Assembly (NCBI RefSeq): GCF_007859325.1
Contig: NZ_VOHK01000004.1
Span: 124,001 to 188,000 of the forward strand
DNA: 64,000 bases
Direction: 5' to 3'
From: Luteimonas marina
Lineage (GTDB): Bacteria; Pseudomonadota; Gammaproteobacteria; Xanthomonadales; Xanthomonadaceae
Part shown: positions 28,801 through 59,657 of the stretch, piece after piece
How positions within the stretch are numbered: position 1 is the stretch's first letter
Layout: each line of letters starts with the position of its first letter
Translations under genes and position numbers: made by a program
Notes under the pieces: model-generated
Databases searched by the model: none
Told to the model about the DNA's origin: nothing
What the model saw: the letters and a program-made list of their open reading frames with translations, nothing else

Positions 28801-28885
28801 CGTCATTCCCGCGAAGGCGGGGATCCAGTGTCTTCAGGTTCTTGAAAGCCAACGACACTGGGTCCCCGCCTTCGCGGGGATGACG
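28801..28885. repeat. REP-like inverted repeat (family A) inside the pabB 3' end
   Basis: The arms CGTCATTCCCGCGAAGGCGG and its complement are separated by a spacer that also pairs (CCAGTGTC with GACACTGG). Nearly the whole element is in the pabB reading frame, and the pabB TGA is in its outer edge. Confidence 0.92.
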
Positions 28886-30269
28886 ACGCCTGTTCGGCGC
28901 CTCTTTCCCCGCTCTCGCCCGCCGGATACAACGCCTGGAGCATGCCGCGCGCCTTGGCCCGGGTCTCGTCGAGTTCGCGCTGCGGGTCGGAGTCGGCGAC
29001 GATGCCGGCGCCGGTGCGGAAGCGCGCCTGCGCGCCCTCGAGCTCGGCGCTGCGGATCAGGATGTTGAGGTCGAGATCGCCATCGCGGTTCAGCCAGCCC
29101 ATCGCGCCGGTATAGGCGCCGCGGCCGCTGCGCTCGAGCTCGGCGATGATCTGCATGCAGCGCACCTTCGGGCAGCCGGTGATGGTGCCGCCGGGGAACA
29201 CCGCCGCGATCACCTCGCCCGGCATCGCGTCCGCGCGCAGGCGTCCGCGCACGTTGCTGACGATGTGGTGCACGTGGGCGTAGCTCTCGATCGTCATCAG
29301 TTCGTCGACCTCGACGCTGCCCGGCGTGCAGACGCGGCCGAGGTCGTTGCGTTCGAGGTCGACCAGCATCACGTGTTCGGCGCGCTCCTTGGGATGGCCG
29401 ATCAGCTCGCGCATGCGCGCGGCATCGTCGTCGCCGGGGAAGCGCGGCCGGGTGCCGGCGATCGGACGCGTCTCGACCACCTCGCCGCGCACCGACACCA
29501 GCCGCTCCGGCGAGGCGCTGACCACGGCCCAGCCCTCGCCCGCGAACAGTCCCGCGAACGGCGCGGGATTGGCCTCGCGCAGGCGCGCATACAGGGCCGC
29601 GGGATCGGGCGCGCGATCGAAGCGCGCGCGCCAGCCTCGTGACAGGTTCGCCTGGAACACGTCGCCGGCGACGAGGTAGTCGAGGATGCGTGCGACGCCG
29701 TCCGTGAACGCCTGCGGCGGGTCCTCGTCCAGCGCCTGCGGCGGCTGCCAGGAGGCGAAGCCAGGCAGGCGCTGCGCCGCGGCGAGGTCGGATGCGATCG
29801 CGTCGAGCAGGGCGTCAAAGCCGGTCTCGGCGACGGCGATGCATTCACCGCTCGCATGGTCGCGCAGGACCGCGGCGGGACAGCGCCGGGCGCGCGCGAC
29901 CGGGAGGCGTCCTTCCGCCTGCGGGAGCCGCAGCACCGGTTCGACCTGCGCGGCCAGTTCGTAGCCGAGCAGCAGGGCCCAGCCGCCGCGGAACGGCCAG
30001 CGCGGTTCCTCGCGCGGCAGGCGGATGTCGCGCCATGCCGCGTCGAGTGCGTCGAGGAAGCCGCCTTCGAGGACTTCGCCGGCGGCGTTGCGCGTGGCGC
30101 CGTCACGGCCGAGTTCGAGCGCTTCGCCGTTGCTGGCGAGCAGCAGGTCCCAGCGGGCGTGCGCGGTGCCGTGGGCGACCGACTGCAGCAGGAGGGGGTA
30201 GCGGGTGGGGGCTACCCGGTGCAGTGAGAGGAGGTCGGTGTCGGGGGAGAGTTGGCGGGTGATCAGCAC
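28803..30269 (-). CDS. pabB: Aminodeoxychorismate synthase component I with repeat-encoded tail
   Basis: PabB aminates chorismate to 4-amino-4-deoxychorismate for folate synthesis, using ammonia from a PabA-type glutaminase. The 488 residues include the chorismate-binding region with FQANLSRGW, PIAGTRPRF, KERAEHVMLVDLERNDLG and FPGGTITGCPK. The start is GTG 30269 (LITRQLSPDTD). The last 27 or so codons (from about SSPRRRGPSVVG) are translated from a family A inverted repeat, which also gives the stop. The native protein probably ended soon after MLQALYPAGE. pabC and pabA are not nearby. Confidence 0.92.
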   Translation of the reverse strand: MLITRQLSPDTDLLSLHRVAPTRYPLLLQSVAHGTAHARWDLLLASNGEALELGRDGATRNAAGEVLEGGFLDALDAAWRDIRLPREEPRWPFRGGWALLLGYELAAQVEPVLRLPQAEGRLPVARARRCPAAVLRDHASGECIAVAETGFDALLDAIASDLAAAQRLPGFASWQPPQALDEDPPQAFTDGVARILDYLVAGDVFQANLSRGWRARFDRAPDPAALYARLREANPAPFAGLFAGEGWAVVSASPERLVSVRGEVVETRPIAGTRPRFPGDDDAARMRELIGHPKERAEHVMLVDLERNDLGRVCTPGSVEVDELMTIESYAHVHHIVSNVRGRLRADAMPGEVIAAVFPGGTITGCPKVRCMQIIAELERSGRGAYTGAMGWLNRDGDLDLNILIRSAELEGAQARFRTGAGIVADSDPQRELDETRAKARGMLQALYPAGESGERGAEQASSSPRRRGPSVVGFQEPEDTGSPPSRE

Positions 30270-30318: not shown

Positions 30319-30520
30319 AAAAGCAAAAGCTTCCGCCTTCGGCGGGTTCATTTCTTTTGATGAGCGTCAAAAGAAACGAACCAAAGAAAAACGCTTTCCC
30401 CGACAGGGCGAATCCGCGAGCGGGGAGTGTGAGGGGATTTTCCGACACGGCATCCCTGCCGTGGCGGAAAACGCCGCACATCCATGTGCGGCGCCCTACG
30501 GGTCTGGAGACTGTGCGGCT
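30319..30520 (+). repeat. Multi-hairpin ~200-bp element, copy B
   Basis: In order it holds a GCTTCCGCCTTCGGCGGG hairpin, a TTTCTTTTGA/TCAAAAGAAA hairpin (30351-30376), a conserved single-stranded stretch (CGAACCAAAGAAAAACGC), a long hairpin around CACGGCATCCCTGCCGTG (30438-30471) and a CGCCGCACAT/ATGTGCGGCG hairpin (30472-30493). It is about 90 percent alike to copy A at 59457-59657 by eye. It forms part of the 750-base gene-free stretch 30270-31022. Confidence 0.85.
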
Positions 30521-30538
30521 TCCAAGGGAAACGCAGGC

Positions 30539-30608
30539 TGTCATTCCGAACGCAGTGAGGAATCTCGCGCGACCAAGCCTGGATTTCTCGCTACGCTCGA
30601 AATGACAG
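30539..30608. repeat. REP-like inverted repeat (family C)
   Basis: GTCATTCCGAACGCAGTGAG and the related TTTCTCGCTACGCTCGAAATGAC arm are inverted. It is the second of several repeats lined up between pabB and fabF. Confidence 0.8.
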
Positions 30609-30619
30609 TACTTGGCTGT

Positions 30620-30692
30620 TGTGGGAGCGGCTTCAGCCGCGACCGGGAGTTCCACGGCGCCGGAAACAGTCGCGCCTGAAGGCGCTTCTGCA
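30620..30692. repeat. REP-like inverted repeat (family B)
   Basis: GGAGCGGCTTCAGCCGCGAC is paired with the variant GTCGCGCCTGAAGGCGC. It is placed between the two facing ~200-bp elements. Confidence 0.85.
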
Positions 30693-30716
30693 AACGGCCG
30701 TACTGGTTCGGCAGCC

Positions 30717-30928
30717 ACGATGCATGGAGACCCTGAGGGCGGCGGGCATAGATGCCCGCCGTTTTTCGCCACGGCAGGGATGCCGTGTCGAAAAATCCCG
30801 TCGAACTTGCCGACGGCAGGTTTGCCTTGTCGAGGAAGGCCCTTTTCTTTGGTTCGTTTCTTTTGGGCCAGCAAAAGAAATGAACCCGGCCGCCGCAGGC
30901 GGACGGAACGCTTTTGCTCTTGGATCCC
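30717..30928 (-). repeat. Multi-hairpin ~200-bp element, copy C (inverted)
   Basis: This has the same hairpin order as copy B but reads on the reverse strand, so B and C face each other. The terminal hairpin here is CGGCGGGCAT/ATGCCCGCCG (30740-30761) instead of CGCCGCACAT/ATGTGCGGCG, and the long hairpin has TCG/CGA where B has CCG/CGG. Both strands of each stem have changed together. Confidence 0.85.
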
Positions 30929-41157: not shown

Positions 41158-41352
41158 TGTCCAGACCCGAAGGGCGCCGCACACGGATGTGCGGCGTTTT
41201 CCGCCACGGCAGGATGCCGTGTCGGAAAATCCGCAGGAATGTTCCAGCGGAAGGCTTGTGACCTTGCGGGGAAGGCCGTTTCTTTTGGTGACTTTTCTTT
41301 GGGCCAGCAAAGAAAAGTTACCCGCTCGCTCGTGGCGAGCGGAAGCTCTTGT
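41158..41352 (-). repeat. Multi-hairpin ~200-bp element, copy D (inverted)
   Basis: This is the most diverged copy. The terminal hairpin is of the copy A type (GCCGCACACGGATGTGCGGC), while the T-rich stem is shifted but still paired (TTTTCTTTG/CAAAGAAAA). It lies directly after moxR; the non-coding stretch 41128-41627 contains only copies D and E. Confidence 0.75.
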
Positions 41353-41373
41353 CCTTCGTTTTGCATTTCAAAG

Positions 41374-41566
41374 TCAAGAGCTTCCGTCCGCTGTCGCGGC
41401 CGGGTTCATTTCTTTTGCTGGCCCAAAAGAAACGAACCAAAGAAAAGGGCCTTCCTCGACACTACAAACCTGCCATCGGCAAGTTCGACGGGATTTTTCG
41501 ACACGGCATCCATGCCGTGGCGAAAAACGGCGGGCATCCATGCCCGCCGCCCTCCGGGTCTGGACA
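41374..41566 (+). repeat. Multi-hairpin ~200-bp element, copy E
   Basis: This copy has the same variant as copy C (CGGCGGGCAT/ATGCCCGCCG terminal hairpin, TTTCTTTTG/CAAAAGAAA stem with CTGGCC loop). It points away from copy D, so the two 5' ends meet in the middle. The DUF58 start codon is 62 bases downstream. Confidence 0.85.
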
Positions 41567-54565: not shown

Positions 54566-54610
54566 TGCGCCCCCGGCGTTCAGCGCCGGGCCGCGCGACA
54601 CCCGCATTCC

Positions 54611-54701
54611 GGGGAGGTGGCAGAGCGGTTGAATGTACCTGACTCGAAATCAGGCAGGCGTTTATAGCGCCTCGGGGGTTCGAATCCCCCCCTCCCCGCC
54701 A
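54611..54701 (+). tRNA. tRNA-Ser (anticodon CGA)
   Basis: This is a class II tRNA of 91 bases with encoded CCA. GGGGAGG pairs perfectly with CCTCCCC. The anticodon arm CTGA-CTCGAAA-TCAG gives CGA. It has a long variable arm and a T-arm of five G-C pairs. It decodes UCG. Confidence 0.97.
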
Positions 54702-54710
54702 GATATCGCG

Positions 54711-54730
54711 AAGCCCCCGGAAGGGGGCTT
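54711..54730 (+). terminator. Terminator hairpin after tRNA-Ser(CGA)
   Basis: AAGCCCCC and GGGGGCTT pair across a four-base loop ten bases after the CCA end, followed by CTGCGT. The stem is strong; the T tract is poor. The rest of 54731-54985 shows nothing identifiable. Confidence 0.6.
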
Positions 54731-54985
54731 CTGCGTATCCGGCGGACGAAGGCGGAAGCGGCGGAACCGAAGCCGCGGACGCCGTCGTCTCCCGACCCGC
54801 CCACGCCATGCGCCGCAGGGACAGGGTCCACACCTGACGCGCCAGCCGCGACGAAACCGCCGGGAATTGTCACTTTTCCGCCGGAAAACCGCGCACCTGG
54901 TCCCGATTCTCGCAGGCATGGTTCCTGCTTCATCTCTTCAGACGACCCCGTGGGGACCCGGCGGGGCGGTTCCGGCGACACGACC

Positions 54986-59456: not shown

Positions 59457-59657
59457 GAAGCAAAAAGCTTCCGCCTTCGGCGGGTTCATTTCTTTTGATA
59501 AGCGTCAAAAGAAACGAACCAAAGAAAAACGCTTTCCCCGACAAGGCAAATTCGTGAACGGGAAATGTGAGGGGATTTTCCGACACGGCATCCATGCCGT
59601 GGCGGAAAACGCCGCACATCCATGTGCGGCGCCCTCCGGGTCTGGAGACTGTGCGGG
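59457..59657 (+). repeat. Multi-hairpin ~200-bp element, copy A
   Basis: This is the reference copy, with hairpins in the order GCTTCCGCC/GGCGGG, CTTTTGA/TCAAAAG, CACGGCAT/ATGCCGTG inside TTTTCCG/CGGAAAA, and CGCCGCACAT/ATGTGCGGCG. Short open frames across it (for example one containing KRNEPKK-like words) are shadows of the repeat. It fills the 300-base gap between the RDD and signal peptidase genes. Confidence 0.88.

Follow-up and report, generated by a model that had tools for sequence, protein, structure and literature searches.

A repeat of ~200 nt, present five times in a 64,000-nt stretch of the Luteimonas marina genome (G000:C16:124001-188000, hereafter the window; Luteimonas is used in the GTDB sense), folds on one strand into two GGA-loop hairpins and a pseudoknot with a covarying third strand. 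This structure, namely, its pairing, its strand, and the covariation of three strands, is strongly supported. We propose, with a probability of about 0.55, that two such ~200-nt units in inverted orientation make up a mobile and apparently non-autonomous element found between genes in Pseudomonadota, and that the structured strand of each unit would act as a CsrA-docking RNA with a triple-helix clamp.

Repeat units in the window and their structured strand

The original prediction placed five copies of a multi-hairpin element in the window, and all five were confirmed, together with their coordinates, orientations, and common hairpin order, as units of ~190 to 200 nt with a mean column identity of 76% (Table 1). 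On the RNA-sense strand, a unit reads, from 5' to 3', two GGA-loop hairpins, a linker, the pseudoknot module, and a terminal hairpin. The genome itself (G000; 3.9 Mb in 21 contigs) contains 16 full units and additional partial ones when three unit queries are taken together. The copies at 30319/30717 and 41158/41374 are inverted pairs, and the former belongs to a ~610-bp composite found in four pairs (the window pair, L002, L003, and L004) with sharp limits and unrelated flanks. Protein frames across the copies had been set aside as differing from copy to copy, and the two long frames across the window copies matched no Pfam family. The composite spacer (window 30530-30716) also contains a further two palindromic repeats, CATTCCGAACGCAGTGAGGAATC... 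and GTGGGAGCGGCTTCAGCCGCGA..., and both can be recognised in each of the four composites. Elsewhere in the window, another inverted repeat (GTCATTCCCGCGAAGGCGGGGATCCAGTGTC ... GGGTCCCCGCCTTCGCGGGGATGAC) lies at 28802-28886 near a gene end, and at 54601-54732, a match to Rfam sX4, listed as a proteobacterial sRNA, overlaps a predicted tRNA, so the sX4 family may represent a tRNA precursor.

Table 1. Repeat units in the window and their parts; positions count from the first nucleotide of the window, and the strand is that of the RNA sense
Feature	Positions	Strand	Remarks
Unit 1, subtype A	30319..30520	(-)	Left arm of composite pair with unit 2
Unit 1, pseudoknot/triple-helix module and terminal hairpin	30324..30402	(-)	
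Unit 1, two GGA-loop hairpins (TwoAYGGAY-like) and CCC-GNA-GGG mini-hairpin	30434..30506	(-)	
Composite spacer, units 1/2	30521..30716	No strand	Recognisable in all 4 composites of G000
Unit 2, subtype B	30717..30928	(+)	Right arm of ~610-bp composite
Unit 2, GGA-hairpin module	30727..30799	(+)	One of two loops is CATAGATG
Unit 2, third strand TTTTCTTT	30843..30850	(+)	Parallel to purine strand AAAAGAAA, 30873-30880
Unit 2, long stem S1 including loop	30851..30886	(+)	
Unit 3, subtype C	41158..41352	(+)	Left half of pair with converging RNA-sense strands
Unit 3, GGA-hairpin module	41162..41233	(+)	
Unit 3, pseudoknot/triple-helix module	41267..41351	(+)	Third strand TTTCTTTT, stem TTTTCTTT/AAAGAAAA
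Unit 4, subtype B	41374..41566	(-)	Right half of pair with unit 3
Unit 4, pseudoknot/triple-helix module	41375..41458	(-)	
Unit 4, GGA-hairpin module	41490..41562	(-)	RF01731 match, 36.4 bits (G000:C16:165487-165554)
Unit 5, subtype A, single unit	59457..59657	(-)	
Unit 5, pseudoknot/triple-helix module	59462..59540	(-)	G000:C16:183462-183540
Unit 5, GGA-hairpin module	59572..59644	(-)	

The compensated stem changes from which selection on base pairing had been deduced are genuine: the last stem is GCACAT/ATGTGC or GGGCAT/ATGCCC, with a third variant, GCGCAT/ATGCGC, in L007, and the long stem contains CCG/CGG or TCG/CGA. Within the window, such double changes represent few independent events until other genomes are added, because they mostly separate arm subtypes. 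In an alignment of 38 sequences from 11 Luteimonas genomes, double changes were found at 11 of 27 pairs in the GGA module and at 13 of 22 pairs in the pseudoknot module. None of 500 shuffles reached the double-change counts or the covariation scores in either module, which indicates that the pairing is under constraint. The number of further pair types in the GGA module (17) was unremarkable and was reached by 320 of the 500 shuffles.

The structured strand is the complement of the one drawn in the original prediction. The fold of unit 5 had a z of −5.35 on the complement strand and −4.90 on the strand drawn, and the long stem, S1, read in the RNA sense, contained 45 G.U cells and no A.C cell across the 38 sequences. 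One hairpin carries a tandem G.A: of the 38 rows, 21 have a G.A pair at the first of two adjacent positions, 21 have one at the second, and 20 have both; the rows without it are Watson-Crick there, except for two with one G.A only. These G.A pairs would read C.T on the opposite strand. On the RNA-sense strand of the GGA module, A.C cells (12) outnumbered G.T cells (1), and 9 of the 12 were at loop-closing pairs.

A pseudoknot with a covarying third strand

The long hairpin of the original prediction has a real stem, but this stem belongs to a pseudoknot in which a third strand covaries as well. In the RNA sense, the module consists of a segment a, a pyrimidine tract (Y'), a six-base lower stem, a second pyrimidine tract (Y), a loop with the complement of a, a purine tract (R) with which Y pairs, the lower stem again, and the terminal hairpin. 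Y' lacks the usual antiparallel complementarity to R; it has the same direction as R, and its T faces A and its C faces G in a Hoogsteen-like manner, as in the Y'/R combinations TTTCTTTT/AAAGAAAA, TTTTCTTT/AAAAGAAA, TTCTCTTT/AAGAGAAA, TTTCCTTT/AAAGGAAA, and TCTTCTTT/AGAAGAAA. Where R has a T, that is, at an inverted pair, Y' has a G (TTTGCTTT/AAATGAAA, TTGTCTTT/AATAGAAA, and TTTTGTTT/AAAATAAA), the third base that parallel triplexes prefer opposite an inverted T-A pair.

The triplex code was tested on 219 rows, of which 206 were distinct and free of N, 199 could be parsed, and 180 remained after a register filter that uses the base preceding the stem and not the purine strand, with the lower stem set at 6 bp. 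These rows include the 38 model-building sequences, and the search model contains no Y'-R pairing, yet its sequence profile favours pyrimidines in Y'. At the 180 sites, the third base was T opposite A in 995 of 1021 cases, C opposite G in 192 of 208, and G opposite T in 4 of 4, and it was mixed opposite C (T 7, C 5, G 5, and A 1). Where R was not A, the code was obeyed at 208 of 230 positions, with C or T allowed opposite C. The match of Y' to its own R was 0.960, compared with a permuted mean of 0.782 and a maximum of 0.821 in 2000 permutations (z 17); with each of the 38 Y'/R types counted once, it was 0.841, compared with 0.695 for permuted types (highest 0.772; z 7.4). Perfect matches were found for 21 types, which are not 21 independent events because some are closely related to each other. 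The pseudoknot stem had a mean of 3.87 bp between its own segments and 2.71 bp between permuted ones (highest of 300, 2.87), and helices of at least 4 bp occurred in 40 different forms.

Two crossing helices thus covary, and the third strand is parallel with a U.A-U and C+.G-C code. What covariation shows is an H-type pseudoknot whose U-rich loop follows the purine strand in parallel, as a U·A-U/C+·G-C Hoogsteen third strand would. A six-pair lower stem without a linker suits the short reach over the deep groove of RNA. The strand polarity and the T.A-T triplets fit a folded single-stranded DNA equally. An insert of ~58 to 72 nt interrupts the long-stem loop, leaving the two halves of the stem in place, in L048, L057, L058, L060, L061, L063, L069, L072, L074, and L086; further inserts in this loop were observed in L096:1346-1457 and in L129:2398-2549, the latter hairpin-rich in appearance.

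Telomerase RNA, SAM-II, and preQ1-II contain major-groove triple-helix H-type pseudoknots. The module resembles these and SAM-V in that a U-rich loop 1 is the third strand on stem 2, which here is predicted from covariation. It differs in having approximately eight triples with C+.G-C and G.U-A substitutions, in its six-pair lower stem without a linker, and in its location in a mobile repeat. ENE triple helices, known from MALAT1 and from plant and fungal transposon RNAs, consist of U.A-U triples and are thought to protect 3' ends. The likeness to ENE would be a U.A-U triple helix in the RNA of a mobile element, if the repeat acts as RNA; the ENE is a U-rich internal loop clamping an A tract, whereas here the U tract is the third strand of a pseudoknot.

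GGA hairpins, TwoAYGGAY, and csrA

Both loops of the GGA module keep the sequence CA(N)GGA, where N may be T, G, C, or absent, despite heavily compensated stems: GGA was in the loop in 38 of 38 rows for one hairpin and in 37 of 38 for the other, with the loop consensus CA(N)GGAYG. The copy at 30717 has lost GGA in one loop, since this loop reads CATAGATG, and ACGA occurs in a few loci of other taxa. Among 68 distinct wider rows, A(N)GGA was present exactly twice in 51, once in 10, three times in 4, and not at all in 3.

The original prediction did not recognise a described RNA family. This stands for the pseudoknot module, which had no Rfam match at the gathering cut-off in the window or in permissive searches (6 + 10 loci), but not for the last two hairpins of the strand as drawn there, which fall just under the cut-off of TwoAYGGAY (RF01731, clan CL00106). 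The GGA module scored 34.9 to 42.6 bits against RF01731 in the permissive searches. The score was 36.4 bits for the 41374 unit, 37.1 bits for G000:C16:521753-521817, and 42.6 bits for the best match, in L205, and no match on the units examined reached the gathering cut-off of 43 bits. RF01731 was above the cut-off in 6 of 41 genomes, and matches below it fell on units of G000 and other Luteimonas. The units share with TwoAYGGAY two adjacent hairpins with AYGGAY-like loops, a tandem G.A in one stem, and a computational link to CsrA. The GGA module is a sub-threshold relative of TwoAYGGAY. In unit 5, the predicted fold includes a short external stem around both hairpins. Part of the text of PMC4333381 describes TwoAYGGAY as a predicted CsrA binder that contains tandem GAs and has a poorly conserved external stem, and that part mentions no pseudoknot, third strand, or inverted-pair repeats. 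In the portion of PMC2864571 dealing with the motif, it is described as probably an RNA, found in the human gut, gamma-Proteobacteria, and Clostridiales.

TwoAYGGAY is already known. For the pseudoknot, its third strand, and the organisation as paired repeats, we found no earlier account in Rfam, in the full-text literature searched with terms including core sequence words, or in the TwoAYGGAY papers, a coverage outside which subscription papers and most preprints lie. Four loci (L231, L232, L233, and L234, from the Luteimonas genomes G003, G013, and G019 and from G052) carry TwoAYGGAY above the Rfam cut-off and no pseudoknot; some have an inverted partner, and L231 to L233 have a long outer stem enclosing the hairpins. 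Six-base tandem repeats (e.g. CCAAAG and CAACGG) begin just beyond the GGA end of several elements, with such flanks at L062:2234-2423, L064:2004-2192, L076:2003-2190, L080, and L083.

CsrB/CsrC and RsmX/Y/Z are sRNA genes with many sites; the repeats of CsrB have the sequence CAGGA(U/A/C)G, and CsrA recognises the consensus RUACARGGAUGU. The units are like these RNAs in carrying loop-GGA hairpins in pairs and unlike them in that they are repeated at dispersed places, have two sites each, and include a pseudoknot as well. In the part of PMC4333381 concerned with these sponge RNAs, their GGA-in-loop hairpins are likewise generally paired.

The gene for CsrA (PF02599) had one match in G000, and of the 76 other genomes in which the pseudoknot module occurs, 56 contain it. 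In the 175 nt on the 5' side of the pseudoknot, one or more A(N)GGA hairpins were found in 37 of the 56 csrA genomes and in 4 of the 20 csrA-less ones (Fisher p 5e-4), and at least two were found in 29 of 56 and 2 of 20, respectively (p 1e-3). These p values overstate independence because several csrA-less genomes are related (six belong to family f118), and the test omitted 50 of 181 matches, in loci without a csrA result, and skipped sites with less than 120 nt of 5' sequence. Without three MAGs (G413, G995, and G539) in which csrA may simply have been missed, an exclusion chosen after the result was seen, the csrA-less counts were 1 of 17 for at least one hairpin and 0 of 17 for at least two. 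As controls in csrA genomes, the 3' side gave 4 of 57 and the opposite strand gave 1 of 56; A(N)GGA yielded 107 sites, whereas each of eight alternative loop motifs yielded 0 to 19. No GGA hairpin lay beside the pseudoknot in 19 of the 56 csrA genomes, and the Pseudodesulfovibrio genome G990 has csrA and lacks the paired hairpins.

Distribution, dispersal, and competing explanations

A search with the unit as a query found copies in 13 of 61 genomes, namely, 12 of 37 Luteimonas and G056 of another family (pseudoknot end only); this BLAST list of carriers is incomplete because a covariance model adds G001, in which it found the pseudoknot module. Covariance model R1 of the pseudoknot module (E <= 0.001) matched 115 of 198 family genomes, in 37 of 54 genera. 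In samples taken from the larger groups, it matched 96 of 369 genomes for the class and 83 of 398 for the phylum, the phylum sample also containing members of the class and family; many of the matches outside the class were weak (E ~1e-4). Copy numbers from R1 are lower bounds because limited candidates were scored per genome under strict filters. A pattern scan of named genomes gave 37 stretches, in Dyella, Lysobacter, Luteimonas, Dokdonella, Rudaea, and Vulcaniibacterium, among others, and also in Betaproteobacteria, Acidiferrobacterales, and Pseudodesulfovibrio; the occurrence in Pseudodesulfovibrio may reflect transfer or great age. The GGA module lies ~30 to 50 nt 5' of the pseudoknot in many Lysobacterales loci, and at E <= 0.01 it was found in none of four Betaproteobacteria loci (L136, L143, L147, and L155) and none of four Pseudodesulfovibrio loci (L134, L154, L156, and L161).

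Dispersal was studied in 77 regions fetched from genomes with unit-query matches. Of 74 elements with both flanking genes called, 54 were inverted pairs (one with two extra tandem units) and 20 were single at the score used. Depending on the genome, the pseudoknot ends of a pair face each other ~35 to 60 nt apart or point outward ~100 to 240 nt apart. Units cluster by genome (mean identity 0.80 within and 0.70 between genomes; 92 of 117 have their nearest neighbour in their own genome), and in 32 of 38 inverted pairs the arms belong to the two different subtypes of that genome, so the pair is what spreads; the ~200-bp unit of the original prediction is real, but it is not by itself the unit of dispersal. 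In this count, the two-cluster split of G000 sets unit 41162 against the rest, and the four A/B pairs of G000 are thus scored as homotypic despite their differing arm subtypes. At L038:1999-2948, three units lie head to tail with a ~220-bp period beside one inverted unit, as if a pair could expand in tandem.

The site of the 41158/41374 pair was located in 30 of 31 genomes searched (G000 and 29 others, with G032 outside those read), and a profile search found no unit at the orthologous site in any of the 29 relatives. Upstream of the site lies a MoxR-type AAA_3 gene, and downstream lies a gene without a Pfam family (E 0.001); the distance between the two is 602 bp here and about 73 to 251 bp in the 29 other Luteimonas genomes; the intergenic DNA at the empty sites is too diverged in the alignment to display a target duplication. 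Spread by plasmids was rejected as an explanation: the 41158-41566 query matched 3 of 72,556 plasmid records and the L205 query 1, on replicons of 0.76 to 4.9 Mb, and the one match with annotation lay between two co-directional genes. Spread by phages was rejected as well, with 0 matches to either query in 50,697 phage records. The L205 query had no match in E. coli.

These observations bear on an alternative, possible but in our view doubtful, in which the fold is used as single-stranded DNA and the units are the ends of a REPIN- or MITE-like element read by a transposase (HUH/Y1 or unknown), the likeness to RNA being incidental. Dispersal as an inverted pair and the absence of 41158/41374 from 29 of 29 orthologous sites would be expected of such an element, strand-specific folding and T.A-T triplets are possible in DNA, and the paired inverted units with unrelated flanks provide the terminal inverted repeats typical of MITEs. 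PF01797 (Y1/RAYT) is encoded in 23 of 37 Luteimonas genomes, in 8 of 12 carriers (by BLAST-detected copies) versus 15 of 25 non-carriers, and it is absent from G022 and G026, which have 10 and 15 BLAST matches; we therefore rejected a RAYT transposase as the mover, and it is not required for carriage. A parent element encoding a transposase, which would have made the copies ordinary MITEs, did not appear in six pair interiors either: Pfam scanning of 12 of their 19 frames of at least 90 aa found no transposase, only a CobO/BtuR gene (L224) and otherwise chance-level matches (best E 0.044). At L224:1501-2684, two same-direction pseudoknot modules flank this corrinoid adenosyltransferase gene, possibly as a composite around a host gene. 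Moreover, a transposase leaves unexplained why A(N)GGA loops track csrA. The elements resemble REPIN/BIME sequences with RAYT in being intergenic, in their inverted pairs, and in lying at gene 3' ends. REPs measure 20 to 40 bp (PMC3733652), and the units here are ~190 to 200 nt, carry a pseudoknot, and do not require RAYT; in agreement with the original prediction, the repeat does not behave as a classical REP.

Placement raises a further alternative, that the repeat is a 3'-end element, either a bidirectional terminator or a BIME-like mRNA stabiliser, selected at convergent gene ends, which we regard as unlikely. With a rough codon-usage gene caller, the 74 elements lay between co-directional genes in 42 cases, convergent genes in 32, and divergent genes in 0, whereas these loci contained 200, 38, and 76 further gaps of the respective kinds that measured 60 bp or more; the elements thus avoid promoter regions. 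On the RNA-sense strand, GTTTTTCG comes after a GC-rich GGA hairpin in 19 of the 38 Luteimonas rows. However, a four-T run follows that hairpin in only 35 of 68 wider rows, elements in wider taxa include 4 of 82 between divergent genes (61 co-directional and 17 convergent, versus 57, 13, and 31 divergent for other gaps), and the pseudoknot, the third strand, and the conserved GGA would be superfluous for a terminator. These placement counts leave out elements situated at the edges of loci (7 of 81 and 15 of 97, respectively) and skip 23 low-GC loci. Single units between co-directional genes, some of them perhaps paired undetected, showed no orientation bias (17 with and 14 against the genes), which weakens a role in read-through mRNA; no sigma-70-like promoter was found in two elements scanned. 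The simplest cause of the placement at gene 3' ends would be the loss of insertions that break promoters. It is very improbable that the compensated stems arose in the absence of selection, through template-switch (quasipalindrome) correction as hairpins are replicated, to which stems in multi-copy repeats are prone: the process yields mirror changes inside a hairpin and gives no reason to expect a third strand that follows the purine strand in parallel, a G where T-A pairs are inverted, or a covarying crossing helix.

We thus favour a mobile element whose structured strand would act as RNA. Its paired GGA hairpins would be a docking site for the CsrA/RsmA dimer, which would make the transcript a target or decoy of CsrA, and the triple-helix pseudoknot may be a rigid 3' clamp, resistant to nucleases, by which the RNA is protected or presented and which keeps a role in lineages without CsrA. 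Tentatively, the argument could be carried further to a selfish class of repeats throughout Pseudomonadota, an RNA with a triple-helix 3' clamp and a removable CsrA-docking cassette that is dropped where the host has lost CsrA.

Triple helices are rarely readable from sequence, and here the covariation of a very common repeat reveals a three-strand code, including G at inverted T-A pairs. TwoAYGGAY, an orphan family of Rfam, gains a genomic context, being paired, dispersed, and in many genomes adjacent to a pseudoknot, and its proposed link to CsrA gains a comparative test. If the selfish-repeat reading is true, the element would be a bacterial counterpart of the ENE-bearing transposon RNAs, exploiting host CsrA where this is present, and each new copy would add CsrA sites. 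Should CsrA indeed bind, the number of copies that a selfish repeat has reached would matter to a global regulator in Luteimonas, Lysobacter, and many further genera.
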